This document shows positions 13,965 to 64,000 of a stretch of DNA of 64,000 nt, piece after piece. The notes under the pieces are model-generated. The model was not told the origin of the DNA. It saw only the letters and a list, made by a program, of their open reading frames with translations, and made no database searches. Origin of the DNA: Bradyrhizobium sp. CB82 (GTDB lineage: Bacteria > Pseudomonadota > Alphaproteobacteria > Rhizobiales > Xanthobacteraceae). The position numbers and the translations under genes were made by a program. Every line of letters starts with the position of its first letter. Positions within the stretch are counted from its first letter, which is position 1. The stretch spans positions 806,001 to 870,000 of the forward strand of contig NZ_CP121651.1 in NCBI RefSeq assembly GCF_029714405.1, read 5' to 3'.

Positions 13965-13975
13965 TCTCTGCTTCC

Positions 13976-14362
13976 TCAGTGTTGTTGTGCGTGTTCGTTC
14001 GAGGGCCGGCTTGCGTGGGCGTCCAGGCGCTCTACCACGCTCGAGATCCAGCCGAGCAAGCGCGTCTGAATCTCGTGGCGGTTGATTTTCGTTGACCATC
14101 TCGTAGCGGGCCCCGGGAAATTCCCGAGATCCGAGGGAGAACGGGCTGTAAGCCCATGCCCGCGGTGGTCATTGCCATACACCGTCAAACCCACGGAAAT
14201 CAGCACGTCGATCGTGTCGATGTAGCGTCTCAGATGCTCGCCCATGCCATGCGCGATCTGGATCACGCCTCGCGTCGGTCCACGGCTATCCCAGCGCGCG
14301 CAAGAGACGCATAAGCCATCGTCGGCCGTCAGACGAAACTTGGCGCTGAGAATGGCAGCCAT
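13976..14362 (-). pseudogene. Alpha/beta hydrolase with a large internal deletion (copy A)
   Basis: The frame starts like the intact copy B hydrolase: 'QIAHGMGEHLRRYIDTIDVL' and 'VYGNDHRGHG'. After 'SPSDLGNFPG' it jumps to the C-terminal 'INRHEIQTRLLGWISSVVE'. About 190 residues, including the nucleophile elbow and the acid residue, are missing. Around the junction the next frame reads 'PGARYEMVNE', so a small indel accompanies the deletion. The remaining 128-residue product could not be a working hydrolase. It lies between the CoA-transferase and the enoyl-CoA hydratase, the same place as in copy B. Confidence 0.85.
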
Positions 14363-14389
14363 GCGGAGCTCTCCCGATCTGCGCGGACC

Positions 14390-15241: not shown

Positions 15242-15299
15242 GGTCATGTCTCCTGAATGGGGGGCGGCCGACGTCGATAGCGCCGGCTCCACCGAGATG

Positions 15300-16520: not shown

Positions 16521-16602
16521 TTGGGATCTCTCCTCGCTGCGGCTCGGAAGCCTGAAAGAGTTGACGGACGGGTTGGACGTATGAACGATCTCGCCAGGGG
16601 CC

Positions 16603-17577: not shown

Positions 17578-17578
17578 G

Positions 17579-32111: not shown

Positions 32112-32112
32112 C

Positions 32113-33090
32113 ATGTCGCAAACCAAACCCATTCGCCGGGTCGCCATCATCGGAACCGGAGTCATCGGCGCGAGCTGGACCGCGCTTTTCCTCGCGAAAG
32201 GACTTGAGGTTGTGGCAACAGACGTTGCGCCGGACGCGGAAGCGGCTTTGAAGCGCTTTGTCGCAGCGGCCTGGCCGGCGCTGCAACGGCTAGGCCTCGC
32301 GTCCGGCGCGTCCCAGAACAAGCTGACCTTCACGGCCGCGCTAGCCGCCGCCGTGAAGGACGCCGACCTGGTCCAGGAGAACGGACCAGAGAAGATCGAC
32401 TTCAAGCGGACGCTCTATCGGCAACTCGACGATCTGCTGCCCGCCGACGTCATCATTGCCTCGAGCTCCTCGGGCCTGACCATGAGCGAAATCCAGGCGG
32501 CTTGCGAAAAACACCCCGAACGCTGCGTGATCGGCCATCCCTTCAATCCGCCGCATCTGGTTCCGCTGGTTGAAATCGTCGGCGGCGCGAAGACGTCGGA
32601 AAGCACGATTCAGCGCGCCGCCGCCTTCTACACGGACCTCGGCAAGAAGACCGTGCGTCTCAACAAGGAGGTCCCCGGGCATGTCGCGAACCGCTTGCAG
32701 GCCGCGCTCGCCCGCGAGGTCTACCATCTCGTCGCCGACGGCGTCGTCAGCGCCGCCGATGTCGACACCGCGTTGAGCTGGGGACCGGGCCTGCGCTGGG
32801 GCATCATGGGCCAGTTGATGCTCAATCATCTCGGCGGCGGCCAGGGTGGCATCGAGCATTTCTTCCAGCAGTTTACCGGTCCCATGACGGCCTGGTGGAA
32901 AGTGCTGGGCTCGCCGCAGCTGACGCCCGAGGTGCAAAAGAAGCTGATCGACGGCGTCCACGCCGAAGTCGGCTCGCGCTCGATCAGCGAACTGGAAGCG
33001 GAACGTGACGAGATCCTGCTGGGCCTCATCGAGCTCCGCAAGAGAGTCGAACAAGCGAGCGCCCCGCGACTGAGGGAGCGCGCTGTCTAA
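32113..33090 (+). CDS. 3-hydroxyacyl-CoA dehydrogenase family (lambda-crystallin type), copy B
   Basis: 325 residues from ATG 32113; nine upstream in-frame codons lie in the propeller gene. Rossmann motif 'VAIIGTGVIGASWTALFLAKG', active site 'CVIGHPFNPPHLVPLVEIVGG', and a helical C-terminal domain 'RWGIMGQLMLNHLGGGQGG'. It is the NAD-dependent oxidation step of the operon; the branch includes carnitine and L-gulonate dehydrogenases, so the exact substrate is open. A clear terminator hairpin lies 20 bases downstream, before the acyl-CoA dehydrogenase gene, so these two genes may be expressed at a different level from the rest. Confidence 0.91.
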   Translation: MSQTKPIRRVAIIGTGVIGASWTALFLAKGLEVVATDVAPDAEAALKRFVAAAWPALQRLGLASGASQNKLTFTAALAAAVKDADLVQENGPEKIDFKRTLYRQLDDLLPADVIIASSSSGLTMSEIQAACEKHPERCVIGHPFNPPHLVPLVEIVGGAKTSESTIQRAAAFYTDLGKKTVRLNKEVPGHVANRLQAALAREVYHLVADGVVSAADVDTALSWGPGLRWGIMGQLMLNHLGGGQGGIEHFFQQFTGPMTAWWKVLGSPQLTPEVQKKLIDGVHAEVGSRSISELEAERDEILLGLIELRKRVEQASAPRLRERAV

Positions 33091-33109
33091 GACCTGACCG
33101 TTGCAGATC

Positions 33110-33146
33110 AAAGCCCCGAAAGGCGAGCGCCCTTCGGGGCTTTTCC
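33110..33146 (+). terminator. Rho-independent terminator between the dehydrogenase genes
   Basis: aaagccccgaa pairs with ttcggggcttt around a short GC-rich top and is followed by T residues. It lies in the 200-base spacer between the 3-hydroxyacyl-CoA dehydrogenase and acyl-CoA dehydrogenase genes, so it splits or attenuates operon copy B. Confidence 0.8.
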
Positions 33147-33291
33147 TTGCGCTTCGGCAACACGCGAAAGCGAGAGCAGACAACAGCGCAAGAACGTCCC
33201 CGGGACCGCAAGCTGCTTCAAGAACGCCGACCGCTTTCGCAGCAAATTGTCCGTCGAGATCATCATCCGCTTCACCCAAGGAGACCTCGAC

Positions 33292-34512
33292 ATGACCACA
33301 GCAACCGCAGCCCGCATGACGGAGGCGCCCAAGGCGCTGCCGGTACCGAACGGTGACTTTTATCAGCTCGTCGAGCTCCTGACCGCCGAGGAGCTGGCGC
33401 AGGTGAAGAAGGTACGGGTCTTCATGGAATCGAAGGTCAAGCCGATCGTCAACAAGTACTGGTCCGACGATGCGTTTCCGTTCGAGTTGCTGCCTTCGTT
33501 CAAGGAGCTCGGAATCGGCGGGCTCGGCTTCGAGGGCTATGGCTGCGCCGGGGGCAGCCAGAAGCTGTTCGGCTATGTCGCGATGGAGCTGGCGCGCGTC
33601 GACGCGTCCATCTGCACCTTCTTCGGCGTGCATAGCGGCCTTGCCATGGGCTCGATCTATCTCGACGGCTCGGAGGAGCAGAAGCAGAAGTGGCTTCCGG
33701 CGATGGCGCGCTGGGAGAAGATCGGATGCTTCGGCCTGACCGAGCCGCTGGTCGGCTCCGGCACGGGTGGCGGCCTCACCACGACCGCGAAGCGCGAGGG
33801 CGACACCTGGATTCTCAACGGCCAGAAGCGCTGGATCGGCAACTCGCCCTGGTGCGACATCTCGATCATCTGGGCGCGCGACGTCGCCGACAACCAGGTG
33901 AAAGGATTCATCGTCGAGAACAAATCGACCCCCGGCTTCAGCGTCGAGAAGATGGAGCACAAGATCGCGCTGAAGGTGGTGCAGAACGGACAGATCACGC
34001 TGAAGGACGTTCACGTTCCCGAAGCCAATCGGCTGCAAGGCGGCAACTCGTTTCGCGATACTGCCCGCGTGCTGCGCATGACGCGCTACATGGTGGGCTG
34101 GGCTTCGACCGGCATCCAGATGGGCGCGTTCGAGACGACGCTGAAATACGCGCAGGAGCGCCTGCAGTTCGGCAAGCCGATCGCCTCGTTCCAGCTGATC
34201 CAGGACCTGCTCGCCAAGATGCTCGGCAATGTCACGGCGTGCCAATGCCTGATGCTGCGCCTGGCGCAGCTCGATGACGAAGGCAAGCTCGGCGATCACC
34301 AGGCTGCGCTGGCCAAGGCGTTCTGCACGGCAAAATCGCGCGAGACCGTCGCCTGGGGCCGCGAGGTGTTCGGCGGCAACGGCATCATCGCCGACTACAA
34401 CATCGGCCGCTTCTTTGCTGACGCCGAGGCGCTCTATTCCTACGAGGGCACCTATCAGATGCAGAACCTGATCGTCGGCAAGGCGATCACCGGCATCAGC
34501 GCGTTTGTCTGA
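33292..34512 (+). CDS. Acyl-CoA dehydrogenase (GCDH/ACX4-like), copy B
   Basis: 406 residues from ATG 33292, after AAGGAGACC; fifteen more in-frame codons upstream are not needed. 'IGCFGLTEPLVGSGTGGG', 'GREVFGGNGIIADYNIGR' and the catalytic Glu in 'YSYEGTYQMQNLIVGKAITG' mark the acyl-CoA dehydrogenase fold. The family branch is that of glutaryl-CoA dehydrogenase and plant ACX4. If it is a true glutaryl-CoA dehydrogenase, the operon would convert glutarate through crotonyl-CoA to acetoacetyl-CoA; if ACX4-like, it handles a short straight chain. The relevant carboxylate-binding Arg could not be judged without alignment. Intact. Confidence 0.94.
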   Translation: MTTATAARMTEAPKALPVPNGDFYQLVELLTAEELAQVKKVRVFMESKVKPIVNKYWSDDAFPFELLPSFKELGIGGLGFEGYGCAGGSQKLFGYVAMELARVDASICTFFGVHSGLAMGSIYLDGSEEQKQKWLPAMARWEKIGCFGLTEPLVGSGTGGGLTTTAKREGDTWILNGQKRWIGNSPWCDISIIWARDVADNQVKGFIVENKSTPGFSVEKMEHKIALKVVQNGQITLKDVHVPEANRLQGGNSFRDTARVLRMTRYMVGWASTGIQMGAFETTLKYAQERLQFGKPIASFQLIQDLLAKMLGNVTACQCLMLRLAQLDDEGKLGDHQAALAKAFCTAKSRETVAWGREVFGGNGIIADYNIGRFFADAEALYSYEGTYQMQNLIVGKAITGISAFV

Positions 34513-34574
34513 TCGCAACGCCAGGCGGGCGGACCTCCGCCCGTCGCCTACTCATCGCAATACAGGAGAGAACA

Positions 34575-35369
34575 ATGGCCGACGTCTCGGCGCTTGCAAA
34601 CGTGCTCTACGAGAAGAAGAACGGCATCGCCTATGTCACCCTCAACCGTCCGAAGGTGCTCAACGCGTTGAATACGCCGACCTGGACGGACCTGAAGGCT
34701 GCCTTCGAGGATGTCAAGGCCGATGCCTCCGTGCATGGCGCCATCCTCACCGGCGCCGGCGACAAGGCCTTCATTGCCGGCGCCGACATCAGCGAGCTCG
34801 CGCATGTCGACGCCTATGACGCCGAGGAATCAAGTCGCTTCGGCCAGGGCGTCCTCGATCTGATCGAAACGCTGGGCAAGCCGGTGATCGCGGCGATCAA
34901 CGGCTTTGCGCTCGGCGGCGGCTGCGAAACTGCGATGGCCTGCACCATCCGGATCGCCGCCGAGCACGCCAAGTTCGGCCAGCCCGAGGTGAAGCTCGGC
35001 CTGTTGCCGGGCGGTGGCGGAACGCAGCGCCTGCCGCGCCTGGTCGGCAAGGGCCGCGCGCTGCAACTGATCCTGACAGGCGAGACCATCTCCGCGCAGG
35101 AAGCGCACCGGATCGGCCTCGTCAACGAAGTTGTGCCGGCGGCCAATCTGATCCCGCGCGCCGAGGCGATTCTGAAACAGATCTCCGCCAACGCGCCGAT
35201 CGCGGTGAAGCTCTCGCTGGAAGCGGCCAACAAGGGAATGGACACAAGCCAGGCCGAGGGCTTTGCGCTCGAAGCGTCCTACTTCGGCATCTGCGCGGCA
35301 ACCGAGGACAAGAAAGAAGGCACCTCCGCCTTCCTCGAGAAACGCGCACCCCAGTTTCGCGGACGCTGA
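34575..35369 (+). CDS. Enoyl-CoA hydratase (crotonase), copy B
   Basis: 264 residues from ATG 34575, preceded by AGGAGAG. Oxyanion-hole and catalytic segments 'AFIAGADISEL', 'GFALGGGCETAMAC' and 'FGQPEVKLGLLPGGGGTQRL' are complete with both glutamates. It adds water to the 2-enoyl-CoA made by the preceding dehydrogenase. It lacks the Ala/Pro leader found in copy A, so copy A may start later than annotated or have gained an extension. The hydrolase gene begins 34 bases downstream. Confidence 0.95.
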   Translation: MADVSALANVLYEKKNGIAYVTLNRPKVLNALNTPTWTDLKAAFEDVKADASVHGAILTGAGDKAFIAGADISELAHVDAYDAEESSRFGQGVLDLIETLGKPVIAAINGFALGGGCETAMACTIRIAAEHAKFGQPEVKLGLLPGGGGTQRLPRLVGKGRALQLILTGETISAQEAHRIGLVNEVVPAANLIPRAEAILKQISANAPIAVKLSLEAANKGMDTSQAEGFALEASYFGICAATEDKKEGTSAFLEKRAPQFRGR

Positions 35370-35403
35370 AATCCAAAAGCGCAAACGAGACCGGGCAGTG
35401 GCC

Positions 35404-36339
35404 ATGGCAACGCCTCTTCCTACCCCGGCTCCAATGGAGCGATTCCGGCTGACCAGCTCGGACGGACTGTGCATCGCCTGCACGCGCTGGGAGAGTCGCG
35501 GCCCGGCCCGTGCTGCGGTTCAGATCGCCCACGGGATGGGCGAGCATATTGGGCGTTATGCCGACACCATCGATATCCTCGTTGCATCCGGTCTCGTTGT
35601 CTACGCGAACGATCATCGCGGCCACGGCCGCTCGGCCCACATGCGGTTGGGAGAGTTTGGCACGGGCGGCTTCGAGCTGCTCGTGCAGGACATGGCCCGC
35701 CTGACCGAGCGCGCCAGAGAAGAAAATCCCGACCTCCCGCTGCTGCTTCTGGGGCACAACATGGGATCGTTCGCGGCGCAGAGATACGTCATCGATCACA
35801 GCCACGAGATTGACGGCCTGATTCTCTCGGGATCGGGGGCGCTCGATCGGCTGGCACGCAGCGCGCTGCTGCCGCCCGCAGGCAACAACCTGTTCAACGC
35901 CGCATTCGAACCAGCGCGCACGCCCTTTGACTGGCTGAGCCGCGACCGGGCAACCGTCGATGCGTTCCTGGCGGATCCCCTCTGCTTTGCAGACCTCAGC
36001 GCCGCCTCTCTTGCATCCCTGCTCGGCGCTGCACCGCAATTGCACGATCCGGCCGCGCTCCGCAGGGTGCGCCGCGATTTGCCGATTTATCTGATCTGCG
36101 GCGACGAAGATCCCATCGGGCAGCACCTGCGCGGAATCCACACGTTGATAAGCCGCTATGCCGATGCCGGGCTGCGCGACATCGCTATCGACGCCTATCC
36201 AGGCGGTCGACACGAGATGCTGAACGAGATCAACCGGTACGAGGTCCACAAACGCCTGCTCGGCTGGGTATCCAAGACGCTGGAAAAGCTCAACGACGAT
36301 CATCGTCGCGTTTTACTCGTACCCGAACTTCAACACTGA
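35404..36339 (+). CDS. Alpha/beta hydrolase (monoacylglycerol-lipase-like) with Asn at the nucleophile position
   Basis: 311 residues from ATG 35404. 'QIAHGMGEHIGRYADTIDIL' and 'VYANDHRGHGRSAH' place it in the serine aminopeptidase / monoacylglycerol lipase family (Hydrolase_4). The elbow motif reads GHNMGS at residues 117-122, so the expected Ser nucleophile is Asn119 (codon AAC). The acid Asp in 'CGDEDPIG' and the His in 'GGRHEMLNE' are kept. A single base change from AGC would explain it. The protein may bind but not cleave an ester or thioester, or may have an altered chemistry. Copy A has lost the whole region. Confidence 0.88.
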   Translation: MATPLPTPAPMERFRLTSSDGLCIACTRWESRGPARAAVQIAHGMGEHIGRYADTIDILVASGLVVYANDHRGHGRSAHMRLGEFGTGGFELLVQDMARLTERAREENPDLPLLLLGHNMGSFAAQRYVIDHSHEIDGLILSGSGALDRLARSALLPPAGNNLFNAAFEPARTPFDWLSRDRATVDAFLADPLCFADLSAASLASLLGAAPQLHDPAALRRVRRDLPIYLICGDEDPIGQHLRGIHTLISRYADAGLRDIAIDAYPGGRHEMLNEINRYEVHKRLLGWVSKTLEKLNDDHRRVLLVPELQH

Positions 36340-36349
36340 GGAGACAGCA

Positions 36350-37576
36350 ATGCCGACCGACAACATCTTTTCCGGACTGAAGGTGGTGGATCTCGCAAGC
36401 TTCATTGCAGGTCCGAGCGCCGCCGTGATCCTGTCCGACTTCGGCGCCGACGTCATCAAGGTGGAGCCGCCGAGCGGCGAGCTCTGGCGGCATGCCAACC
36501 ACCTTCCGCCGCAACCGGTCGCGGAGGACGCCTATCCCTGGCATCTGGCCAATCGCAACAAGCGCGGTATCGCGCTCGACCTGAAGTCCCCGGGTGCGCA
36601 TCAGGTGCTGGAAAAGCTGGTCAAATGGGCCGACGTGCTCATCGTCAATACGCCCCACCCGGCTCGTGCGCGGCTCAAGCTCGAATATCAGGATGTCGTG
36701 CAGTGGAATCCACGCCTCATCTATGCCGACATTTCAGGCTTCGGCGACAAGGGTCCGGATGCGGATCTTCCCGGCTTCGACATCACCTCATACTGGGCGC
36801 GCAGCGGCCTGCTGTCGATGACGCGCGATGCCGGCGCGCCGCCGACCTGGCCGGTGGCCGGCAGCGGCGACAACGCCACCGCCGTCGGGCTCTATTCCGC
36901 GATTGTGACCGCCCTCTACCGCCGCGAGCGTACCGGCGAGGGAGCCCACGTCACGACCTCGCTGCTCGCCGAAGGCGTATGGTCGGCGAGCGTGTCGATC
37001 CAGGCGGCGCTGTGCGATGCCAAGTTCTTCGGGCTGCACGACCGCGCCCATCCGGCCAATGCCGCGATGAACGTGTACCGCGCCCAGGATGGCACCTGGT
37101 TCGTGCTGATCGTCACGCCCGACAAGCTCGCTGCCGTCATGAAGGCCCTCGGCCGCACGGATCTGCTGACCGACCCGCGGTTCGCCGATCCCAAGAAGTT
37201 GATGGCGAATATGCCGGCGCTCACGGCCATTCTGGACGAAATCTTCTGCTCGAAGCCGATGGCGCACTGGTACGAGGTCTTCAATGGCGTGCACGTCACG
37301 TTCGGCGCGGTACGCGGACCGCAGGAGGTGGTGAACGATCCGCAGCTTCGTGCCAATGATATCGTCGTGCCGCTCGAAGGCGCCGGCGGCAAGCTGACCT
37401 CGACGATCAGCAGCCCGATCCAGGTTCACGGCGTCACCAAGGTGCCGGCGAAGCGCGCTCCCGATATCGGAGAGCATAACGAGCAGGTGCTGCACCAGCT
37501 TGGATTCACCGCGACGGAAATCGACGCCCTGCGCGCGGGCGGCGCTATCCCGAAGCCGAAGCAGCAGGTGACGTAG
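36350..37576 (+). CDS. Family III (CaiB/BaiF) CoA-transferase, copy B
   Basis: 408 residues from ATG 36350, after GAGGAGACAGC. 'GLKVVDLASFIAGPSAAVIL', 'DVIKVEPPSGELWR' and 'DLPGFDITSYWARSG', where the catalytic Asp is expected, define the family. It transfers CoA between carboxylic acids and would activate the acid degraded by the operon, saving ATP. It follows the hydrolase by ten bases. Family III transferases pair with glutaryl-CoA dehydrogenase-like enzymes in several bacteria, giving the glutarate hypothesis; carnitine- or aromatic-type acids are alternatives. Confidence 0.94.
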   Translation: MPTDNIFSGLKVVDLASFIAGPSAAVILSDFGADVIKVEPPSGELWRHANHLPPQPVAEDAYPWHLANRNKRGIALDLKSPGAHQVLEKLVKWADVLIVNTPHPARARLKLEYQDVVQWNPRLIYADISGFGDKGPDADLPGFDITSYWARSGLLSMTRDAGAPPTWPVAGSGDNATAVGLYSAIVTALYRRERTGEGAHVTTSLLAEGVWSASVSIQAALCDAKFFGLHDRAHPANAAMNVYRAQDGTWFVLIVTPDKLAAVMKALGRTDLLTDPRFADPKKLMANMPALTAILDEIFCSKPMAHWYEVFNGVHVTFGAVRGPQEVVNDPQLRANDIVVPLEGAGGKLTSTISSPIQVHGVTKVPAKRAPDIGEHNEQVLHQLGFTATEIDALRAGGAIPKPKQQVT

Positions 37577-53963: not shown

Positions 53964-54128
53964 ATGGCTAACCTTGACTATAGCGCCGATTCGGCGCCTC
54001 TGCCCCATCCCTCTCTGGTGTTTCAGGCTCGGTCCAATTTGACCGACGTCGGCAGCGCACCCACCGCCAACCCGGTGGCCCTGGCGACCGACACGACCTG
54101 CCCCATCACCCAGCTGTTCATCGGCTAG
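53964..54128 (+). CDS. 54-residue ORF of unknown function
   Basis: ATG 53964 follows AAGGA by seven to eight bases. The product starts 'MANLDYSADSAPLPHPSLVF', has a Ser/Thr/Ala-rich middle and ends 'LATDTTCPITQLFIG'. It has no membrane helix or signal peptide, is acidic to neutral, and carries one Cys near the end. The layout (polar leader, small C-terminal part with Cys/Thr) would fit a modified-peptide precursor, but no modifying enzyme is encoded nearby. It may be a small structural protein or a chance frame. It precedes the four-gene cassette by 250 bases. Confidence 0.4.
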   Translation: MANLDYSADSAPLPHPSLVFQARSNLTDVGSAPTANPVALATDTTCPITQLFIG

Positions 54129-54379: not shown

Positions 54380-55324
54380 ATGTCCTATTTCTTCAACAAC
54401 ACCTCCGCGCAGCCCGCCTGCACCAGCAACATCCACCGTCCGATGGGCGGCATCGCCGGCCTTCGGGAGGTCCACGACGACGTCGGTCGCCTCACCGTCT
54501 CGGCCTTCCCGTTCGCGATGGTGAAAGACATCTCGCTCACTCTCGCCGCTATGCCGGCCTGCTACATCCTTGCGGATCATGCGACGGCCTATATCGGCGA
54601 GACCGGCAACGCCGGTCGCAGGCTCGGCGAGCATTCCGGCGATCCGTCGAAGGCGTTCGCCCGCGAGGTCTACGTCATCTCGGGTTACCAACGCGCCTGG
54701 TTCGACAAGACGGCGGCCGTCTACCTGCAGTTCCGTCTCACGCAAATCGCCGAGCAGGCCGGTTTGGTCGACATCATGAAGGGGACGAACCCGCAAGTGC
54801 TGGAGCTTCCCAACCACAAGCGCGCCTCGCTCGACCACTTCGTCGAGCACGGCGAGCGCCTCCTGTTCGACGCCGGATGTCGTGTGCTGCGCAGCAACTT
54901 CGCGAGCCAGCGCCGCAAGGCGGAAGCAGTCGATACCGATATGGCGATCGGGCCGGAAGACACCGGACCGATGCAGATCGACGTGACGGGCTTGCCCCCG
55001 CTCGGTAGTGAACTCGAGCTCGCCTATGGCGACCTCTGGGCTCGGGGCTACCCGGTCCGCGACGGTTTTGTAGTGACGGCCGGTTCGGAGGTGCGCAGCC
55101 TCGTGAACCCGAGCGTCAACCCGATCTTGCGCACCCGCCGGGCCGAACTCGCCGCGGCCGACGCGCTGGCCATTATCCCTGGCATTGAGGATCGGGCGCG
55201 CCTCCGCGTGGCCGTCTGCTTTCCGTCGGCTGCCATCGCGGCGAAGGTCGTGACCGGCGCGCATGTGAGCAGCGGCAAGTGGGTCAATCGCCGCTATCCC
55301 GAGCCGATCTTGATCGCGGGCTGA
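54380..55324 (+). CDS. GIY-YIG-like protein with DUF4357 C-terminus
   Basis: 314 residues. Residues 59-125 form a GIY-YIG-like fold: 'PACYIL' stands for the GIY strand, 'TAYIGETGNAGRRL' gives YIG at 71-73 and the Arg helix, and 'GEH' the His. In relatives a catalytic Glu follows in 'YLE.RL'; here it is Gln117 ('YLQFRL'). The C-terminus ('GFVVTAGSEVRSLVNPSVNP', 'FPSAAIAAKVVTGAHVSSGK') matches the DUF4357 plan, often fused to GIY-YIG nucleases in mobile islands. The protein may therefore bind rather than cut DNA. It is first of four tightly packed genes (10-base gap to the next) beside conjugation genes. Confidence 0.8.
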   Translation: MSYFFNNTSAQPACTSNIHRPMGGIAGLREVHDDVGRLTVSAFPFAMVKDISLTLAAMPACYILADHATAYIGETGNAGRRLGEHSGDPSKAFAREVYVISGYQRAWFDKTAAVYLQFRLTQIAEQAGLVDIMKGTNPQVLELPNHKRASLDHFVEHGERLLFDAGCRVLRSNFASQRRKAEAVDTDMAIGPEDTGPMQIDVTGLPPLGSELELAYGDLWARGYPVRDGFVVTAGSEVRSLVNPSVNPILRTRRAELAAADALAIIPGIEDRARLRVAVCFPSAAIAAKVVTGAHVSSGKWVNRRYPEPILIAG

Positions 55325-55334
55325 GGGATCAATC

Positions 55335-55907
55335 ATGTCGAACAAAATGGAAATGCCGGCGCGCAAGCGCCGGCATCGGGGCCTCGCTGACCCGATCGGC
55401 AATGCTCCCGATCTTGCCCGGCAGATCTCCGGGCCGGCCACTTCCGGGCGGCCTTTCGCCGCTCAGGACTTCTCCCCACTCGCGTGGTGGCGGACCTTGC
55501 CATCCTATCTCCTCCGCGATGCTGAGCATCTGCTGCTGATCGACACGCTTGACACCATCTGCGTGATGGACCGGCACGACGATTTTGCTGCGGCGCTGCG
55601 CGGTGACGCCGCAACAGCGGTCGGGGTGGCGTTCTCGCTGCTGCCCATCCACGAGGTGACGCTGACGGTCGACATCGCCATGACGGCGCTGCTGCGCTGC
55701 GCCCTCGCCGGCGACGCGACAGCCACTCTGGTCCTCGCGAGTATCCTTCACCGCGTTAAACTCAACCATTCCCTCGCAACCGAGTTGTCGGCCTCCTGGC
55801 AAACGCGTCTTGGCCGCGAGATTCGCCCGGGCGGGCTCCGGCGCCCCGGATTCTGCAACGGCTTGATGGTGGATGTTGTCAACGGCCAAGCGGAGGACCG
55901 AGCATGA
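55335..55907 (+). CDS. 190-residue protein of unknown function
   Basis: I do not recognise this protein. It starts with a basic segment ('MEMPARKRRHRGLADPIG'), then a mainly helical Ala/Leu-rich body ('AWWRTLPSYLLRDAEHLLLI', 'DIAMTALLRCALAGDATATL') and a short basic end. There is no signal peptide, and the hydrophobic helices look amphipathic rather than membrane-spanning. It begins 10 bases after the GIY-YIG-like gene, and its stop overlaps the ATPase ATG by four bases (ATGA), so it is made together with the ATPase, perhaps as an adaptor. Codon use matches the neighbours. Confidence 0.75.
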   Translation: MSNKMEMPARKRRHRGLADPIGNAPDLARQISGPATSGRPFAAQDFSPLAWWRTLPSYLLRDAEHLLLIDTLDTICVMDRHDDFAAALRGDAATAVGVAFSLLPIHEVTLTVDIAMTALLRCALAGDATATLVLASILHRVKLNHSLATELSASWQTRLGREIRPGGLRRPGFCNGLMVDVVNGQAEDRA

Positions 55908-57502
55908 GCGCCACGAGCGATAATGGCGATGACCTCGATCTGCCGGCGGCGGAGGACGCGGCCTCGACCGGAGCCGCGGCTGATTCGTCCGATTTGGATG
56001 AGCGTCTGCAGGCACTGCCCCGCCTTCTGCGCTACGCGATGCTCGTCAAGGAAGGCGCTTTCCATATCGAGGAGCGTCTGGTTGCCGAGATTAGCGAGCT
56101 CTGCCCTAGCCTTCCGCAGACCGCGCATTGGGCGACAGCGCTGAGAGCGGATGCCGGGCTTGCCCTTACAGCGCTGAGTACGGATGCCGGACTTGCCCTT
56201 GCGGCCGAGCTCGACAAGCGAGCCGTCAGTCTGGACCAGCCGGTCCTGCGCAGCCTCTCGGACTGCGTGCGCTTGCTGTGCCTTCCACTGCCGTGCTCAG
56301 CAGAGACCTTCGACGACTATCGCAGGGTCGGGAAGGCGTTGGTCGAAGCTTTCCGAAAGGCTTGTCGCGACGTTGACGAAGAGCTGCGTTGCGATCTCGA
56401 AGGAGTGACCTACGGCTGGGCGGCTCTGCCGGCCTGCCGCGACCTACTCTCAAAGCATGTCGGGGCCGTCGCGAACGCGACCACGCTCGGGCCCATCATG
56501 GCGGAGCACCGGATCGCCGCTGCTAAGGCGACCCTGCGCCGCCAATTGAAGGAAGAGGAGGAGCGCCGAAAGCAGCAGACTGCCGAGATCTCTGTCGCAA
56601 ATCAGCAGCAGGAGCCTTCCCCAAACTCCACACCAGATCATGGCCTCGTGGTCGCGCGTCTGTCCCCGGAGGAGATGAAGAACGTCAAGCTCAAGGATAT
56701 TTTGGGACCGCTGAAGAGTGTCATCAACGCTCCTTTGCCGCTCGTTGAGGTGCCGCCTCTGCAGGAGGCGCGCAATGCTCTGCTGTTCGAGTTCCCATAC
56801 GCAATCGACGTCATCGATTTCGCGCTGGCCGATCTCGTCGGCCGCACCACAATTCGTCTCCGTCCCCTCCTGATTGTTGGCGAGCCCGGCGGCGGCAAGA
56901 GCCGATTTGCCCGCCGAATCGGTGAGGTGCTGGGTCTCCACGTTTGGCGGACCGACGCCAGTCGTTCCGACGGTGCGGTGTTCGGGGGAACCGACCGGCG
57001 CTGGTACTCGGCCGAGCCTTGCCATCCTTTTCTCGCCATCGCGCAGGGCAAAACGGCAAACGTATTGGTCCTCCTGGATGAATTGGAGAAAGCTGCAACG
57101 AGGTCCGACCACGGCCGACTATGGGACTGCCTGCTCGGCTTTCTCGAGCCGGAGACGAATTCCAGATATCCCGATCCCGCATTGCAGACCAATCTCGACC
57201 TATCGCAGGTGAGCTACATCGCCACGGCCAACGCTCTCGATCCGCTGCCGAGCCCTATCCGGGACCGTTTCCGCATCGTGACCTTTCCGAAACCGGCGGC
57301 GAATCATTTGGACGCTCTACTGCCGGCGGTGATCGCCGACCTCGCCAAAGAGCGCGGCCTCGACCAGAGCTGGGTGCCGCCGCTCGATGGCGTTGAGCGC
57401 GAAGCCGCCGCGAAGCACTGGCCCGGCGGCTCGGTGCGGCGCCTGCGCCGCATTGTCGAGGCTGTCCTGCGCGAGCGCGACATTCGCGCATCGAGGAACT
57501 GA
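55904..57502 (+). CDS. Lon-like AAA+ ATPase
   Basis: 532 residues. The first 230 are helical with no family I can name and include an 11-residue tandem repeat and a charged coiled coil ('RRQLKEEEERRKQQ'). The AAA+ core follows: Walker A GEPGGGKS at 326-333, Walker B 'VLVLLDELEKA' at 387-397, a sensor-1 region 'VSYIATANALDPLPSPIRDR' and a lid ending 'PGGSVRRLRRIVEAVL'. The core is closest to the ATPase part of Lon-type proteases, but no protease domain follows. It should unfold or remodel a substrate, likely its operon partners. It is coupled to the preceding gene and ends two bases before the DUF2130 gene. Confidence 0.85.
   Translation: MSATSDNGDDLDLPAAEDAASTGAAADSSDLDERLQALPRLLRYAMLVKEGAFHIEERLVAEISELCPSLPQTAHWATALRADAGLALTALSTDAGLALAAELDKRAVSLDQPVLRSLSDCVRLLCLPLPCSAETFDDYRRVGKALVEAFRKACRDVDEELRCDLEGVTYGWAALPACRDLLSKHVGAVANATTLGPIMAEHRIAAAKATLRRQLKEEEERRKQQTAEISVANQQQEPSPNSTPDHGLVVARLSPEEMKNVKLKDILGPLKSVINAPLPLVEVPPLQEARNALLFEFPYAIDVIDFALADLVGRTTIRLRPLLIVGEPGGGKSRFARRIGEVLGLHVWRTDASRSDGAVFGGTDRRWYSAEPCHPFLAIAQGKTANVLVLLDELEKAATRSDHGRLWDCLLGFLEPETNSRYPDPALQTNLDLSQVSYIATANALDPLPSPIRDRFRIVTFPKPAANHLDALLPAVIADLAKERGLDQSWVPPLDGVEREAAAKHWPGGSVRRLRRIVEAVLRERDIRASRN
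56135..56200 (+). repeat. 33-base tandem repeat within the ATPase gene
   Basis: Units at 56135-56167 and 56168-56200 differ at three bases and encode '(T)ALRADAGLAL' and '(T)ALSTDAGLAL'. The repeat keeps the frame and lies in the N-terminal helical region. It is probably a recent in-frame duplication. Confidence 0.85.
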
Positions 57503-57504
57503 TC

Positions 57505-58917
57505 ATGGCGGAACAGAACAACGGAAACGCGCGGCCGCCATTGCCGCGGCCGCCGCAATTGCGCGGGATAACCCGCGCGCAGGGCTTAAACAGCTCTCCC
57601 TCGCCCGGTACTATCGCGGTCAATCCTCCGAGGACCGATACCGTGACCGATCCCCAGATCGTCTGCCCGAACTGCCGTACCGAAATCAAGCTGACAGAAT
57701 CGCTCGCGGCGCCCCTGATTGCCGAAACGCGCCGCAAGTTCGACCAACAGCTTGCGGCCAAGGAAGCAGACTTTGGCCAGCGCGAAGCGCTGCTCAAGCA
57801 GGCCAGCGAGGAAGTCGCGAAAGCTCGCGAGACCGTTGACGAGCAGGTTGCGGCTAAGCTGAAGGCAGAGCGGGCCAACATCACCGAGGCGGAAGCAAAG
57901 CGAGCGCGTCTGGCGGTCGCCGACGAGCTCAGCACCCGCGACCGGCAGTTGACCGATTTGCAGCAGATGCTTGCAGCCAACAACGAGAAGTTGGCCGCGG
58001 CCCAGAAGATCCAGGCGGACATGCTCCGCAAGGAGCGCGAGCTCGACGACGCCAAGCGCGAAGTCGAGCTCACGATCGAAACGAAGGTGCAGCAGGCACT
58101 TGCGGCTGTACGCGAAAAGGCGAAGCTGGATGCCGAGGACGGCTTCAAGGCGAAAGTCGCGGAGAAAGAAGCCCAGATCGCCGGCATGAACCGGCAGATC
58201 GAGGAACTCCGCCGCCGGGCCGAACAGGGCTCGCAGCAGCTGCAAGGCGAAGCCCTGGAGCTCGAACTGGAATCCCTGCTCCGCAATCAGTTTCCGCGCG
58301 ACCTCATCGAGCCGGTGCCGAAGGGCGATTTCGGCGGCGACGTCCTGCATCGCGTGTTCGGTCCTGGTGGGCAGACCTGCGGCACGATCCTCTGGGAATC
58401 GAAGCGGACCAAACGTTGGAGTGACGACTGGCTGACCAAGCTCAGGAGCGACCAGCGCGCGGCCAAAGCGGAGGTCGCCCTCATTGTCTCCAGCGCGCTG
58501 CCGAAGGAAATAGAAACCTTCGGACTGGTCGACAATGTTTGGGTTGCGGAGCCCCGGTTCGCCGTTCCTCTCGCCATCGTGCTCCGGCACGGGCTGATCG
58601 ACCTCGCCGGCAGCCGTCAGGCTCAGGAAGGCCAGCAGACCAAAATGGAGATGATGTACGGCTATCTGACCGGTCCGCGCTTCCGCCATCGCATCGATGC
58701 GATCGTGGAGAAGTTCACCGACATGCAGGCCGACCTCGACCGCGAGCGCAAGACGATGATGCGGCTTTGGGCGAAGCGCGAAGAACAGCTCCGCGGCGTG
58801 CTCGACTCCACCGCCGGCCTCTACGGCGACCTCCAGGGCATAGCCGGTCGGGCAATGCAAGAGATCGAGAGTCTTGATGTGCTGATGATTGAGGTGAAGG
58901 GCGAAGCGGCAGAGTAG
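57505..58917 (+). CDS. DUF2130 protein: zinc-ribbon-like start, coiled coil, PD-(D/E)XK-like core
   Basis: 470 residues from ATG 57505. A GTG at 57643 with GAGG upstream is a good second start, just before the conserved 'DPQIVCPNCRTEIKLTES'. A long coiled coil spans about residues 75-245 ('QQLAAKEADFGQREALLKQA'). The C-terminal core reads 'PKGDFGGDVLHRVF' and 'CGTILWESKRTKRW', giving Asp279 and Glu298-x-Lys300, a PD-(D/E)XK nuclease-like arrangement as in RmuC-like proteins. DUF2130 itself has no settled function. It ends the cassette; nothing follows on this strand. The nuclease idea rests on the motif only. Confidence 0.82.
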   Translation: MAEQNNGNARPPLPRPPQLRGITRAQGLNSSPSPGTIAVNPPRTDTVTDPQIVCPNCRTEIKLTESLAAPLIAETRRKFDQQLAAKEADFGQREALLKQASEEVAKARETVDEQVAAKLKAERANITEAEAKRARLAVADELSTRDRQLTDLQQMLAANNEKLAAAQKIQADMLRKERELDDAKREVELTIETKVQQALAAVREKAKLDAEDGFKAKVAEKEAQIAGMNRQIEELRRRAEQGSQQLQGEALELELESLLRNQFPRDLIEPVPKGDFGGDVLHRVFGPGGQTCGTILWESKRTKRWSDDWLTKLRSDQRAAKAEVALIVSSALPKEIETFGLVDNVWVAEPRFAVPLAIVLRHGLIDLAGSRQAQEGQQTKMEMMYGYLTGPRFRHRIDAIVEKFTDMQADLDRERKTMMRLWAKREEQLRGVLDSTAGLYGDLQGIAGRAMQEIESLDVLMIEVKGEAAE

Positions 58918-59122: not shown

Positions 59123-59980
59123 TCACGGCAGGAGGTGGCACGGGCTGTCCTGAGGCGTCATGATCATTACCGCACGATGCGCGCGGGTTGTAGCAACGTG
59201 AAGGTTGAAGCGGGCGGAGCGTTCGCCATCGGCGCCGGCGCGCTGGAGGTAGCGCTGGAATTGGCCTTCGAAGACGATGACCTCGTCGAATTCCTTTCCC
59301 TTGGCTTTGTGGATCGTCATGACGGTGACGCCCCGTTGCGGCCGGGTGGTTGCCGCGAACTGATCTTCGACGACGGCGGCGGCGAGCAAGGTACGAGCGT
59401 GGCTATAGGCACCATGGGTGCGCCAAGCCTCGGCCAGCCTGGATTCGATTTGGGCGCCGCGCCGCAACAGGCGCATGTGACGCGCTTCCCTGGCCACGAC
59501 CTGGAACTCCTTACGGTCGCTTGCATTGAGTCGGGCCCGGATGGCCCGCCAGTCCGTCATAGGATCTCCCGACAGGGCCAAGGTTGCGACGGTGTCCATA
59601 AGGTTTCGGATGCCGGGTCCGATACCGCGTGCTTCAAGGCCCTCTACTCCACGGCCTCGAACAGCGGTGGCTAGGTCGCGATATCGGGCGGCCTTTCGGC
59701 GCGCCCCTACCGATGCCTCTTCGGTTCTGCCGAGCTCGAACGCGGCAAGCCCGTCCAGGATCGCGGCGGCAAGATGCTGATCGCTCGAGCGCGGCTCCAT
59801 AAGCAATGCAATCAGGTCCGCAGCAAGCATCGGTCCCTCGGCGGCAACGAGAATGTCGACCGGATAGGCCGGGAGGCCGTGAACGGCCTGGGCCATGTAG
59901 TCGAAGACGTTAATGGCCAGCGTGTTTGCGGGAACGAGCACGACGGATACGATCAGGGAACGCGCTATCCTGGACCGCCG
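59123..59980 (-). pseudogene. UvrD-like helicase, C-terminal fragment
   Basis: The frame gives the 2B/2A end of a superfamily 1 helicase: 'RGVTVMTIHKAKGKEFDEVI' (motif V), 'RFNLHVATTRAHRAVMIMTP' (motif VI) and a preceding helical region 'YVRLLRRG'-like at 'HMRLLRRGAQIESRLAEAWR'. Motifs I to III with the Walker boxes are absent; upstream of about 59980 the sequence belongs to the conjugation module. The remaining 285 residues cannot hydrolyse ATP. It lies convergent to the DUF2130 gene, separated by 200 bases. An intact helicase may once have been part of the neighbouring cassette. Confidence 0.75.
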
Positions 59981-60113
59981 CGGAGGATGTCTTGTCGATC
60001 GGCGCTGACTTGGTCGCGGACTCGTCGCCCCCCTTGTCTCTATTGGAACCGCGACCCGTGCGACGTTGCCGCTCGAGACTGAAATCCTCGCTATCGTCAC
60101 GTGTGTCGTTCAT
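59910..60113 (-). pseudogene. Truncated gene after traG, perhaps relaxase N-terminus
   Basis: An ATG at 60113 overlaps the end of traG and gives 'MNDTRDDSEDFSLERQRRTG' with a basic, Gly/Arg-rich continuation to 59910. In rhizobial elements with this virB-traG arrangement the gene after traG is a VirD2-like relaxase that begins with such an acidic-then-basic stretch. The frame runs out where helicase sequence begins, so only the start would remain. The family call is weak. Confidence 0.35.
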
Positions 60114-62043
60114 GCTGCGGCTCGTTCTTCTTGCGGCCGGACCGTCGTGCCGGCGGAATGGCTTGGGCATCGATATAATTCAGGGTCCAGGCCTTCATGT
60201 CATCTTCGGAGAGGCCTTCGAGGTCGACATCCACATCCCCGAAATCGAATGAAGCGTTGGCAGGAATCGTCGAGGGGTCGGCGACCTCCTCGTCGGTCAT
60301 CGGCCGTGACCGAAACACCGCGCGGAGTTCAGCGACCTCGGAACGGAGTTCCTTGATTTCGGCGTCAAGCAGCGCATTCGAGCGGCCCTTCGGCATCTTG
60401 GGGATGGGGGCTGGCAGCAATCGCGGCAGGAACGCCTTGTCCTCGTAGTAGACGATCTTGTCGACAATGATGGGTGGAATGCCGGTCCCAAGTATGAAGG
60501 CCTTGGATTTCGGAAGCAGCTTCAGCTCTTGCGGCAGCATCAGGGCGCGACGATGCTCGGAGATCGTCTCGCTGGTGGATCGCATGGCGAGCCCTTTTGG
60601 TCCGCTGCGGCTGTGCGCTTTCACGGTATCGTAGCCGATACGCTCCGAGAGCTCATTCGCCACGTCCTGCTCCTTCGGGGCAAACACGACCTCGACGGCA
60701 TGGTTGGTCATGAAGTTGCGGGCCGCGTCGATCCCGTAGATCGCGCGCAATTGTGCCGGGCTTTGGACCACGGTGAGAAGGCGGATGCCGTATCCGGCGA
60801 TGAAGGCGACCGATTTTGCCAGCACATTGACATTGCCTAGCGCTGGAAATTCATCGAGCAGCAACAGTAGCTTCCGATTGAGTTTAGGGTTTTGCTCCGG
60901 CAATTGGCGAGTATTCAGATCAACCACCTGCTGAAACAGCAGATTGAGAAGCGGCGCCATGCGGTCGAGATTGTCGGGCGTCACCCCGAGATAGATCGAC
61001 ATCGGCCGCTGCCTCAGCTGTCGCAGGTCGAAATCATTGGCCGAGGTTGCGGCATCGATGCGGGGATTGAGCCAGAGGCCGAGGCGGGCCGTCACAGTCT
61101 TGCGGACCGAGTTCAGCGTGTTTTCGGAGGCGGCCAGGAAATCATTCAGTGCGGTGATGCAGTGCCGCGACAGTGGCGACGGGCTGGAGCTGCGAACGGC
61201 GATGACTTTGTCAAAGTGGGTTTTGAGATCCTGGGTCGCCGACAGCTGGCGCAGGATCTCGCCGATCGTCAACGGCAAGCCCGGCGTCTCCGCGACATAG
61301 CCGCCAATCGCCACAAAGGATGAACGAGCCGCCTCGAACCAGAACGGATCACCCCGGCTTTCGGCCGGAAATAGCATCACCGCGATGCGCTGCAGATCGT
61401 CATAAAGGTCGGCGGAATCACTGCGCACATAGCCCAGGGGATTGTAGCGTGCGGTGCGACCGTTCTCGTCAAGGGGATCGAACAGATGGACCTCCTGGCC
61501 ATGGGCTGCGCGAAAGCCGGCGGAGCGATCCCAGTTCTCTTTCTTGACGTCGAGCGCGACGACCGAATCCGGCCAATTGAGTAGGTTTGGGATGACATAG
61601 CCGACGCCCTTCCCGGCGCGCGTTGGGGCATAGAGGAGGACGTGTTCCGATCCGCCGAAGCAGAGCATTGCACCGTCTTTGCGGCCGAGCAGCAGACCCT
61701 CCTTGGATCGCAGGCCGGCAGCCTTGATCTCGCGCTCGGACGCGAAACGGGCTTTGCCGTGAAGCGGAAGCGGCCGGTGCCGGAGGATGGCGCCCAGTAG
61801 GCCAAAGACCACAATCAGCCCGGCCAGGGTCGACAGCGTCAGCCAGCGGTCGAAACGTGGGTCAGCGCCATAACGCGGCCAGCCTGTGGCGATCTCCAGC
61901 CAGTGAAAGCCGCCATCGTGGTGCCTGAGCCCGAGCAGCAGAACGTTCGAGGCGACCAGCAGGAAGACTGCTCCGGCCCCGAGCGCAAGCGCTGTGCCCT
62001 TCGCCACCTTAACGGGCGTGGTCGCGTTTGCGAACGGGGTCAT
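60097..62043 (-). CDS. traG: Type IV secretion coupling protein (TraG/VirD4)
   Basis: 648 residues from ATG 62043. Two N-terminal helices ('ALALGAGAVFLLVASNVLLL', 'LAGLIVVFGLLGAIL') are followed by the RecA-like core: Walker A in 'VLLYAPTRAGKGVGYVIPNL', Walker B in 'LLLLLDEFPALGNVNVLAKS' and 'RLLTVVQSPAQLRAIYG'. The C-terminus is acidic. The protein links the relaxase-bound DNA to the secretion channel and powers transfer. It overlaps virB11 by 35 bases. The next gene is cut, so transfer by this module alone is unlikely. Confidence 0.94.
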   Translation of the reverse strand: MTPFANATTPVKVAKGTALALGAGAVFLLVASNVLLLGLRHHDGGFHWLEIATGWPRYGADPRFDRWLTLSTLAGLIVVFGLLGAILRHRPLPLHGKARFASEREIKAAGLRSKEGLLLGRKDGAMLCFGGSEHVLLYAPTRAGKGVGYVIPNLLNWPDSVVALDVKKENWDRSAGFRAAHGQEVHLFDPLDENGRTARYNPLGYVRSDSADLYDDLQRIAVMLFPAESRGDPFWFEAARSSFVAIGGYVAETPGLPLTIGEILRQLSATQDLKTHFDKVIAVRSSSPSPLSRHCITALNDFLAASENTLNSVRKTVTARLGLWLNPRIDAATSANDFDLRQLRQRPMSIYLGVTPDNLDRMAPLLNLLFQQVVDLNTRQLPEQNPKLNRKLLLLLDEFPALGNVNVLAKSVAFIAGYGIRLLTVVQSPAQLRAIYGIDAARNFMTNHAVEVVFAPKEQDVANELSERIGYDTVKAHSRSGPKGLAMRSTSETISEHRRALMLPQELKLLPKSKAFILGTGIPPIIVDKIVYYEDKAFLPRLLPAPIPKMPKGRSNALLDAEIKELRSEVAELRAVFRSRPMTDEEVADPSTIPANASFDFGDVDVDLEGLSEDDMKAWTLNYIDAQAIPPARRSGRKKNEPQHERHT

Positions 62044-63040
62044 AGTAGATTTCCGAAATGCGATAGCGGCCGTTACGCTTCTCCATCTGGACGACGACGT
62101 CGACCAGATGCAACAACAGCGAACGGATATCGTCCCGATGAAGGTCACGTCCCTCGGCACTTTCCTTGACCAACAGCGTCATCTGTTCGAAGGCAAGACG
62201 GGCGCTGTCGGCGTGAACCGTCGTGATCGATCCAGGGTGCCCCGAGTTCACATTCCTGAGGTAAAAGAAGGCGGTGCCGTCGCGCAGCTCCTGCAGCAGG
62301 ATCCGGTCGGGCCGCATGCGCAAGGACGATTCGAGCAGTTCACGGGGGCCGATTTTGGCCACACCCTGCCCATCCTTGGCGTAGAGCAGCCGGACGCAAT
62401 TCTGGTGCGGGATGACGAGCTCGGCCGTGTCTTCAATGGTGATGAGCCGTTCATGCGCTGGGATCGCTGCAATCAGCGCCTTGGACAGAGTGGTCTTGCC
62501 CGAGCCGGTTGCCCCTGAGATCAGGATATTGCGGCGGGTGTGCACCGCAAGCTCGAGGAACTCGCGCCACTGCCCGGCGTCTTTCAGAGCGAGCAATCGA
62601 TGCTCATCGGCGGTCAGCTCGTCACTCGCGGAGCGGACCTCGTCGAATAGCCTTGTCCGCTCCAAAGCGTCCAGATTCATGGTCAGTGTCGAGGGCTTGC
62701 GAATGGTCAAGCTGATCGTGCCGGCCGGGACCGCTGGCGGCACCACGATCTGACAGCGCTCCTCGCCGATCAGGCTGGTTGAGACCACCGGGTATTCCGG
62801 CCCTATGTCCTGTCGGGTGTGACTTGCGGCTGCGGTTGCAAGATGAGAGAGGTAAGCGTGCGTAAGGGCTGCCGATTCATGCCGGGCCCAACCGTCAGGC
62901 CCTTCCACGAAGATCTCGCCGGGACGGTTGACGACGATTTCGGTCAGGGCGTCGTCCGCGAGGTAAGGAGCCAGCGGCTCGAGATAGCGCGCCAGCACCA
63001 GACGCCCGCCATCATGTCCGATGGATGCGACCTGGCTCAT
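62009..63040 (-). CDS. virB11: Type IV secretion ATPase VirB11
   Basis: 343 residues from ATG 63040, which overlaps the virB10 stop by four bases (ATGA); a long upstream in-frame extension is antisense-like and ignored. Walker A is 'ILISGATGSGKTTLSKALI', the Asp box 'ERLITIEDTAEL', Walker B region 'RPDRILLQELRDGTAFFYL' and the His box 'VNSGHPGSITTVHAD'. It forms the hexameric traffic ATPase at the base of the channel. Gene order virB10-virB11-traG is that of integrative conjugative elements with a VirB-type pore. Confidence 0.94.
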   Translation of the reverse strand: MSQVASIGHDGGRLVLARYLEPLAPYLADDALTEIVVNRPGEIFVEGPDGWARHESAALTHAYLSHLATAAASHTRQDIGPEYPVVSTSLIGEERCQIVVPPAVPAGTISLTIRKPSTLTMNLDALERTRLFDEVRSASDELTADEHRLLALKDAGQWREFLELAVHTRRNILISGATGSGKTTLSKALIAAIPAHERLITIEDTAELVIPHQNCVRLLYAKDGQGVAKIGPRELLESSLRMRPDRILLQELRDGTAFFYLRNVNSGHPGSITTVHADSARLAFEQMTLLVKESAEGRDLHRDDIRSLLLHLVDVVVQMEKRNGRYRISEIYYDPVRKRDHAR

Positions 63041-64000
63041 TTTGTCACCGTAGCCGGCCCGACGATGCCTCCTGGGAGGGTGCGGTCGAGAATCTGCGTG
63101 CGGCTTTCGATCCGTTTGAGTTGGTAGACCGACGAAAAATCGAGATCGCGCGCGACAAAGATGTTGACCAGCTCGCCCTGGTTCTTGCTCAGCGTTGGCG
63201 GAATGTTGATGGACTGCTCGACGGCGATGCCGGCGGCCGTGTTGGTCGCGCCAGCCGTGTTGTTGATCTGGATCGAGCCGTCTTGCAGTTGCTGGCGCCC
63301 AATGGAGGAGGCATCGCCGACGATCGACAGCAATAGCGCCGAACCAAAGCGCTCCCAGAAATGTGTGTCGATATCGCCGTCGAACCCGGCGCGGCCGAGC
63401 GCATCCGTGGCAGGCGACGCCAGCGCCACGACGACACCTGTTGGTGTCTTGGCGCGGGTCCACAGGACGAACATGCGTTTTGAGCCGCGCCGAACATTGC
63501 CGCGATATTCGCCGACCACTTGCGTGCCCTTTTCCATGAGCACCACATTGCCTGAATCCGACATCACGTCGCGTATTACGACGCAGGAGACAAAACCGGC
63601 GACATCCGACGACATCGCGGTCTCCAGCACGCAGGGGATCGACGTGCCCTGGGTGACCAGAAGATTGCGATTGGGAAGCCGCGCGGCGCGCACGCCCTCG
63701 ATCGGCGTCGGTTTCAGCTTGTCGGCAAGCTCGTTGCGCGGCTCTGCCCGCCCAAAATCATAGGGATCGACAGGGGCGCTTCCGGTCTGGGCATCACGGG
63801 CCGGACGCCCCGATGTGACCGGCCGATTATAGGCCAGCACCGGCGCGCGCCGCCCGCTTTCGAGCATCTGGTCCGGCGCGGGCGCGGGTGCCGCTGGTGC
63901 GGCCGAGATTGGCGCGACCGGAATGGAGGCCGTCGTGATCGGCGCTGCAGGTGGCTCCTGGGCGGGCTCGAACGCGGCGGCCTGGCGGATCATGAGTTTG
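63037..64000 (-). CDS. virB10: Type IV secretion protein VirB10 (5' end outside window)
   Basis: At least 321 codons are visible and the frame stays open to the window edge. The visible part has a Pro/Ala-rich periplasmic linker ('PAAPITTASIPVAPISAAPA') and the conserved VirB10 beta-barrel domain: 'LLVTQGTSIPCVLETAMSSD', 'VVLMEKGTQVVGEYRGNVRR' and the antenna region near 'SALLLSIVGDASSIGRQQL'. The cytoplasmic N-terminus and membrane helix lie beyond the window, so the Met at 63993 is not taken as the start. VirB10 spans both membranes and senses energy from the ATPases. Confidence 0.93.
   Translation of the reverse strand, partial: KLMIRQAAAFEPAQEPPAAPITTASIPVAPISAAPAAPAPAPDQMLESGRRAPVLAYNRPVTSGRPARDAQTGSAPVDPYDFGRAEPRNELADKLKPTPIEGVRAARLPNRNLLVTQGTSIPCVLETAMSSDVAGFVSCVVIRDVMSDSGNVVLMEKGTQVVGEYRGNVRRGSKRMFVLWTRAKTPTGVVVALASPATDALGRAGFDGDIDTHFWERFGSALLLSIVGDASSIGRQQLQDGSIQINNTAGATNTAAGIAVEQSINIPPTLSKNQGELVNIFVARDLDFSSVYQLKRIESRTQILDRTLPGGIVGPATVTK

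Follow-up and report, generated by a model that had tools for sequence, protein, structure and literature searches.

A recurring modular gene cassette around a Lon-like ATPase in Bradyrhizobium, with a possible role in defence against invading DNA

The locus and its genes

Bradyrhizobium sp. CB82 carries a run of four closely packed genes in a 64,000-nucleotide stretch of contig NZ_CP121651.1 (positions 806,001 to 870,000), which was analysed as a whole and is called the window here. The genome measures 10.1 Mb, and this copy is on its second contig, of 900 kb. A first-pass annotation, made from the sequence of the window, had described a four-gene cassette and suggested that it serves in defence. 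The genes are labelled A to D in transcription order, with a small open reading frame (ORF), S, ahead of them. All are on the + strand.

53964..54128, + strand: S, small ORF of 54 residues, with a protein start of the type MA(K/N)..Y.ADS; 25 family matches over the fetched loci, redundant loci included
54380..55324, + strand: A, GIY-YIG/DUF4357-type protein of 314 residues, with Gln117 at the presumed catalytic Glu column; a swappable upstream module
55335..55907, + strand: B, protein of 190 residues with no family match; a core gene of the cassette
55904..57502, + strand: C, Lon-like AAA+ ATPase of 532 residues without a protease domain match; a core gene
57505..58917, + strand: D, DUF2130 protein of 470 residues; a swappable downstream module

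The four ORFs lie where they had been placed, and the ORF list gives a gap of 10 bases between A and B, an overlap of 4 between B and C, and a gap of 2 between C and D. The last figure depends on where D begins. A gene caller that relies on codon usage starts D at 57643, which would undo the 2-base gap. This start was rejected on the start codons behind C and on the extension that follows them. A start codon in an open frame lies 1-3 bases past the stop of C in 16 of the 19 loci that carry D (15 ATG, one GTG), and the extension that it heads is mostly of the type LPRP..LxGIT....RTD. Three loci (L061, L071 and L127) depart from this pattern. The early start also falls within a 16-base sequence that is 81-88% similar to the starts of B and S (repeat family D4), a resemblance of a length that can arise by chance. 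The start codons behind C and the similar start-site sequence make the early start the better call: position 57505 is the most likely beginning of D, which upholds the 2-base gap. Protein D then consists of an N-terminal extension of about 46 residues, a CPxC motif, a probable coiled coil and a PD-(D/E)XK-like GGD...WExK motif.

Recurrence across genomes

Full-length C, taken as 600 bits or more with the five best candidates of each genome scored, is present in 40 of 265 Bradyrhizobium genomes, at 48 places. Matches at E<=1e-40 extend to 61 genomes, and those beyond the full-length ones are C-half relatives or pieces. B lies within 5 kb and on the same strand at 35 of the 48 places, and 34 of the 40 genomes with C also hold B (Fisher p 6e-19 over the 265 genomes), which is found in 65 genomes of the genus. 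A was found 54 times, in 40 genomes; 28 of these copies are within 6 kb of C, and 27 of the 48 C places have A within that distance. D, at 714 bits or more, stands within 3 kb of C at 19 of the 48, and 19 of the 37 such D places adjoin C. This check of co-occurrence bears out the proposal that the genes belong together, with A, B and D recurrently beside C. The association is not exclusive: full-length C adjoins only 37 of 100 B matches, or 29 of 43 when the matches have at least 80 bits, and B must therefore stand in other surroundings as well.

At wider range, a sample of 296 genomes from the family has B in 36, spread over 9 of 47 genera, and a sample of 385 from the class has it in two, counting the CB82 genome itself. 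Relatives of C occur at 33 loci in a collection of genome contigs, which come from Bradyrhizobium, Rhodopseudomonas, Tardiphaga, a Mesorhizobium bin and a Hyphomicrobiales bin. A plasmid collection gave two matches covering 80% of C, both on B. japonicum plasmids, and a phage collection gave none. The closest relative of A among the matches listed, 97% identical, is also from B. japonicum. The cassette is real and recurs in Bradyrhizobium and its relatives.

Exchange of modules around the core

Gene order was read at 47 non-redundant C loci, a biased set, since 26 of them entered through B. Directly upstream of the core stand A (21 loci), a protein called P (7), or an HNH protein (H) together with a protein called N (7). 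The other 12 loci have none of these directly upstream; two of them lie at contig edges, and L123 and L124 carry A and B a few genes further up. P has 260-290 residues and a Y(D/E).KRGNG motif; it is called PD-(D/E)XK-like from this motif alone, and Pfam, PHROGs and PADLOC do not match it. N is a phage-type protein of 190 residues (phrog_4652). The core ahead of C is made up, in order, of B (32 of the 47 loci), a metallophosphoesterase, X (18, four of them truncated), and a DUF6634 protein, Y (12). Downstream of C lies D at 19 loci and a DEDDh exonuclease, E, at 5 (one a run-on frame), with neither at 23. Motif residues are kept in X (27 rows), E (7), H (10) and D (20), and P (8) keeps its D...Y(D/E)xK stretch. 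An apparent C-E fusion in L095, an 888-residue frame, was set aside: the end of C is out of frame, the match stops at model position 500, and a frameshift is the probable cause.

The label of the upstream module changes 17 times on a tree of C (46 rows), against a least possible 3 and a mean of 22.1 for shuffled labels, where 'none' counts as a state and the program warns of some long branches meeting. None of 200 shuffles was as low as 17, so the label is still partly inherited along the C tree. Well-supported branches alone force at least 9 changes for A, 6 for P and 5 for the HNH protein with N. Taken together, the 17 changes and those forced on supported branches mean that the modules have been exchanged repeatedly. 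The four-gene cassette of the first-pass annotation therefore stands insofar as the four genes recur together, and it was drawn too narrowly, as one of several versions of a modular cassette.

Divergence of the proteins was compared pairwise with Mantel tests. The correlation r was 0.78 for A and B (n 19), 0.61 for A and C (n 22), 0.34 for B and C (n 34), 0.50 for C and D (n 17) and 0.86 for Y and C (n 12). This co-divergence suggests that A is paired with B and, less strongly, C with D, and the extension of D behind C suggests docking of the two.

Relatives of C also occur with other genes. Behind the C-half relatives on Microvirga and Sphaerotilus plasmids comes a metallophosphoesterase with a match to X (192 and 195 bits), and three fetched C-half relatives of the Bradyrhizobium group precede DUF6634 (L024-L026). 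Because of these settings, the ATPase may have older partners than the nucleases.

Two further arrangements were seen. The genome of the window holds a second locus (L144, G000:C1:563581) with HNH, N, B-like and metallophosphoesterase genes. A related set, made up of an A-like protein, a DEDDh exonuclease and an AAA protein, is present in L079, L081, L091 and L151. The AAA protein of this set in L091 is FtsH-like with a peptidase M41. B lies near the set in L079, L081 and L091, and an integrase lies near it in L151.

The four proteins

The window copy of A matches the GIY-YIG family (PF01541) weakly, at E 0.024, which is below the cutoff. Among 14 family members of A, nine match GIY-YIG (best E 0.00059) and five match DUF4357 (best E 0.00027), all of them weakly. 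A stronger match links residues 66-297 to PDC-S14, a candidate system of PADLOC (E 7.3e-26). A sequence search found no solved structure for A. Conservation was read from an alignment of 144 rows, which are related and partly redundant: the window copy, 120 of 289 database relatives and 23 locus copies. The GIY and YIG motifs and the Arg and His that follow them are kept (Y62 in 143 rows, Y71 in 140, G73 in 143, R81 in 140 and H85 in 138). The column 46 residues past the YIG tyrosine, which we take to be that of the catalytic Glu from its spacing, from the relatives with Glu there and from what is known of UvrC and I-TevI, holds Gln in 138 rows, Glu in 5 and Arg in one. The window copy has Gln117 there. 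Because of the Gln at this column A is probably not an active nuclease, and it probably binds DNA without cutting it.

S lies about 250 bases before A and is conserved. In L065 and L084 a leader that matches S runs on into a truncated GIY-YIG half, and S is possibly a leader peptide or a remnant. Between 53700 and 59300 there is no match to a sigma-70-like promoter, and five terminator-like sites were found where 3.8 are expected.

B went unrecognised in the first-pass annotation and does so here, with no family in Pfam, NCBIfam, PADLOC or PHROGs. Its sequence search against solved structures gave nothing better than E 0.46, and profile comparison gave no kinship between B and C.

C has an AAA domain (PF00004, E 7.5e-10), and its description as a Lon-like ATPase lacking the protease is upheld. 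The Lon model TIGR00763 covers residues 321-524 of C only, which are positions 355-559 of the 795 in the profile, and no S16 protease domain matches C. The likeness to Lon protease is thus in the AAA+ module, and Lon also provides the closest solved structures of C. The difference is in the absent match to the protease domain and in about the first 155 residues, over which Lon does not match. The window copy of C further contains a 33-base tandem duplication (56135-56200), which adds 11 residues absent from 13 of 13 other aligned C proteins.

D is a clear DUF2130 protein (PF09903, E 2.4e-78). Its GGD and WExK residues are invariant in 13 of 13 aligned proteins, and D279, E298 and K300 give an acidic residue followed by (D/E)xK, so that D carries a motif of the PD-(D/E)XK type and is a putative nuclease by that motif. 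A sequence search of D against solved structures returned short coiled coils only, at E 0.017 or worse. DUF2130 proteins of rhizobial plasmids are 56-63% identical to D among the best rows. Unlike them, the D of the cassette has an N-terminal extension and starts right behind C; the proteins of four inspected plasmid copies begin 0-12 residues ahead of the region that aligns with D read from 57643. Of the two nuclease-like proteins named at first pass, D keeps this standing through its conserved motif, and A probably loses it as an active nuclease.

Genomic setting

Known defence systems are the nearest neighbours of the cassette at three other loci. A short pAgo with SIR2-APAZ lies 44 bases from D in L061, an IetAS pair lies 480 bases from the cassette in L062, and a short pAgo lies 199 bases away in L071. 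These came from a check with PADLOC, one by one, of ten chosen flanking proteins, five of which belong to known systems (short pAgo and SIR2-APAZ in L061, IetA and IetS in L062, short pAgo in L071). PADLOC was also run on 110 of the 184 proteins that flank 34 cassette loci, with a control of 110 of the 266 proteins from 20 random regions of the carrier genomes. At E<=1e-10, 69 families matched in the flanks (25 of them listed) and 15 in the control, both being small and redundant counts of overlapping families and not of proteins, which makes the comparison a rough one. Plasmid pS11L-1 encodes a SIR2 protein and a PIN nuclease downstream, on the opposite strand.

The first-pass annotation had seen the cassette beside a helicase fragment and a broken conjugation module. 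The fragment beside D is confirmed as the C-terminal part of a UvrD helicase. The module is not broken: the type IV secretion system (T4SS) runs on past the edge of the window and is apparently complete. Its matches to VirD4, VirB11, VirB10, VirB9, VirB8, VirB6 and VirB4 are on the minus strand, in window positions 59123-63993 and in the adjoining piece L021 (G000:C2:870001-885000), with VirB9, VirB8, VirB6 and VirB4 beyond the edge. A conjugation neighbourhood is also not the general setting of the cassette, since most of the 25 commonest Pfam families in the sample of 110 flanking proteins are metabolic and some are transposases. The defence setting proposed earlier draws support from the known systems next door at three other loci, and not from the T4SS as a general feature.

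Two ideas about integration sites were dropped. One was integration linked to tRNA genes, which lie in 4 of the 34 cassette loci and in 2 of the 20 control regions. A supposed constant hot spot at an enoyl-CoA hydratase gene came from a 13-locus cluster that is a loose superfamily; at E<=1e-60 the L060 copy matches only itself and its duplicate in L110. Elsewhere in the window, two gene blocks of opposite orientation (12738-18508 and 31182-37576) have matching protein starts and are catabolic by look, going by gene calls only.

Comparison with known systems

The composition is without a name, as had been thought: no match of A to D in PADLOC, Pfam, NCBIfam or PHROGs names the combination. Literature searches found no account of the system; it could be described elsewhere, as subscription literature was largely outside their scope. 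A matches the models of PDC-S14, which is itself a candidate, and B, C and D match none of the PDC-S14 models. The metallophosphoesterase X matches PDC-S10 (E 1.7e-10), and the exonuclease E resembles PDC-S48 and CRISPR-associated DEDDh proteins. C is a marginal match to IetA (E 0.014) and a true IetAS pair stands beside one cassette, but there is no IetS among A to D. In BREX a Lon-like BrxL goes with PglZ, BrxC and PglX, and no BREX model of PADLOC matches A to D at E<=1. Restriction-modification of types I-III is not suggested either, with no cognate methyltransferase among the recurrent cassette families; in one plasmid copy, methylases lie behind D on the opposite strand.

Interpretation

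We lean toward reading the locus as one of several forms of a modular defence cassette, carried by Bradyrhizobium and its relatives and directed against invading DNA of phages or plasmids, and consider this somewhat probable. It builds on what is observed in the gene order, the recurrence, the exchange of modules, the start of D right behind C and the conservation of motifs. The upstream module, here A, would recognise or hold a DNA structure or end, and B would couple it to C. C, an AAA+ motor without the Lon protease, would use ATP to remodel the bound nucleoprotein or to move on DNA. It would then hand the DNA to the nuclease encoded behind it, here D, which would be docked to C through its N-terminal extension and would degrade the DNA. 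In other versions the upstream enzyme and the downstream nuclease would be exchanged and the B-C core kept.

Several points weigh against a defence cassette of this kind. B has no fold recognisable by sequence, and the role of A as first step is a guess because A is probably without catalysis. B and D do not co-diverge significantly (Mantel r 0.25, n 17, p 0.08), and P and N give values near zero with B or C (n 7 each). Among the 47 C loci, 12 lack all three upstream modules in the directly adjoining position, and 23 have neither D nor E. Known defence neighbours stand at three cassette loci only, and five of the ten singly checked flanking proteins have no PADLOC match. The control proteins were matched too (mad3 in five proteins), and as the control is random chromosome, the excess in the flanks could reflect genomic islands generally.

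The strongest rival, because N, X and E have phage relatives, is a module of mobile elements (integrative elements, plasmids or prophages) that would serve DNA repair, recombination or replication support rather than defence. We think this reading unlikely; in it the nucleases, the phosphoesterase and the AAA+ motor would process the DNA ends of the element itself or aid its establishment. Relatives of N turn up in 129 phage records, most of which are named as Escherichia phages. Three of the records were inspected (L173, L174 and L175): the N relative adjoins a FelixO1-like DNA ligase in one and DNA polymerase I in another. X and E match phage families in PHROGs. DUF2130 relatives are on 65 plasmid records, 50 of these from Bradyrhizobium; four inspected plasmids carry no other cassette genes, and two of the four carry ParA in the vicinity, together with a relaxase or a RelE/ParE toxin gene. 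Plasmid relatives of C lie near an error-prone polymerase or an integrase, the window copy adjoins the T4SS, and a C relative of 55% identity lies near the end of one 46-kb IMG/VR viral contig (L142), in a provirus or host flank. Repeated exchange of the upstream enzyme around a core fits defence better, however, as do short pAgo or IetAS as nearest neighbours, and no integrase or T4SS family is prominent among the recurrent neighbours, although single loci have an integrase.

Modification-dependent restriction of a type IV-like kind would have the upstream module read modified bases and C and D act as motor and nuclease in the manner of McrB and McrC. The logic would be shared with McrBC and CoCoNuT systems, namely an AAA+ motor, a separate nuclease of the PD-(D/E)XK type and exchangeable readers or accessory modules, and no methyltransferase is a recurrent part of the cassette. 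One paper reports DUF4357 as an accessory domain in GmrSD type IV enzymes (PMC4619093). Yet A to D match no McrB GTPase, McrC, DUF262 or EVE-like domain. We think this reading improbable. By term search, the main text of the CoCoNuT paper has no DUF2130 or GIY-YIG and has DUF4357 once, as an McrB alias (PMC11090510). Least probable of all is a regulatory or abortive system, in which X, DUF6634 and the ATPase would answer a stress signal and the nucleases would damage the host. In Microvirga and Sphaerotilus an AAA+ protein does stand with an X-matching metallophosphoesterase and without the nucleases. The same idea is favoured by short pAgo and SIR2 systems, whose own mode of action is abortive. 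The window version, however, has neither the phosphoesterase nor DUF6634.

Within the favoured reading of a defence cassette against invading DNA, a bolder form is possible, and we hold it tentatively. The cassette may represent an undescribed defence class built on an exchange principle, in which an adaptor, B, and a protease-less Lon-type motor, C, would accept three unrelated upstream enzymes and two unrelated downstream nucleases. The commonest version would use a GIY-YIG protein with Gln fixed at the catalytic Glu as a DNA reader that does not cut. Taken by itself, a GIY-YIG domain with an intact motif and no catalytic Glu is a testable oddity.

If the cassette defends against phages or plasmids, nitrogen-fixing root-nodule bacteria would have in it a new system of modular build. 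Thanks to its natural swaps, combining modules from different versions would show which part is reader, which motor and which nuclease, and functions would be assigned to DUF2130, DUF6634 and phrog_4652. It would also show a Lon-type motor without its protease driving nucleases.

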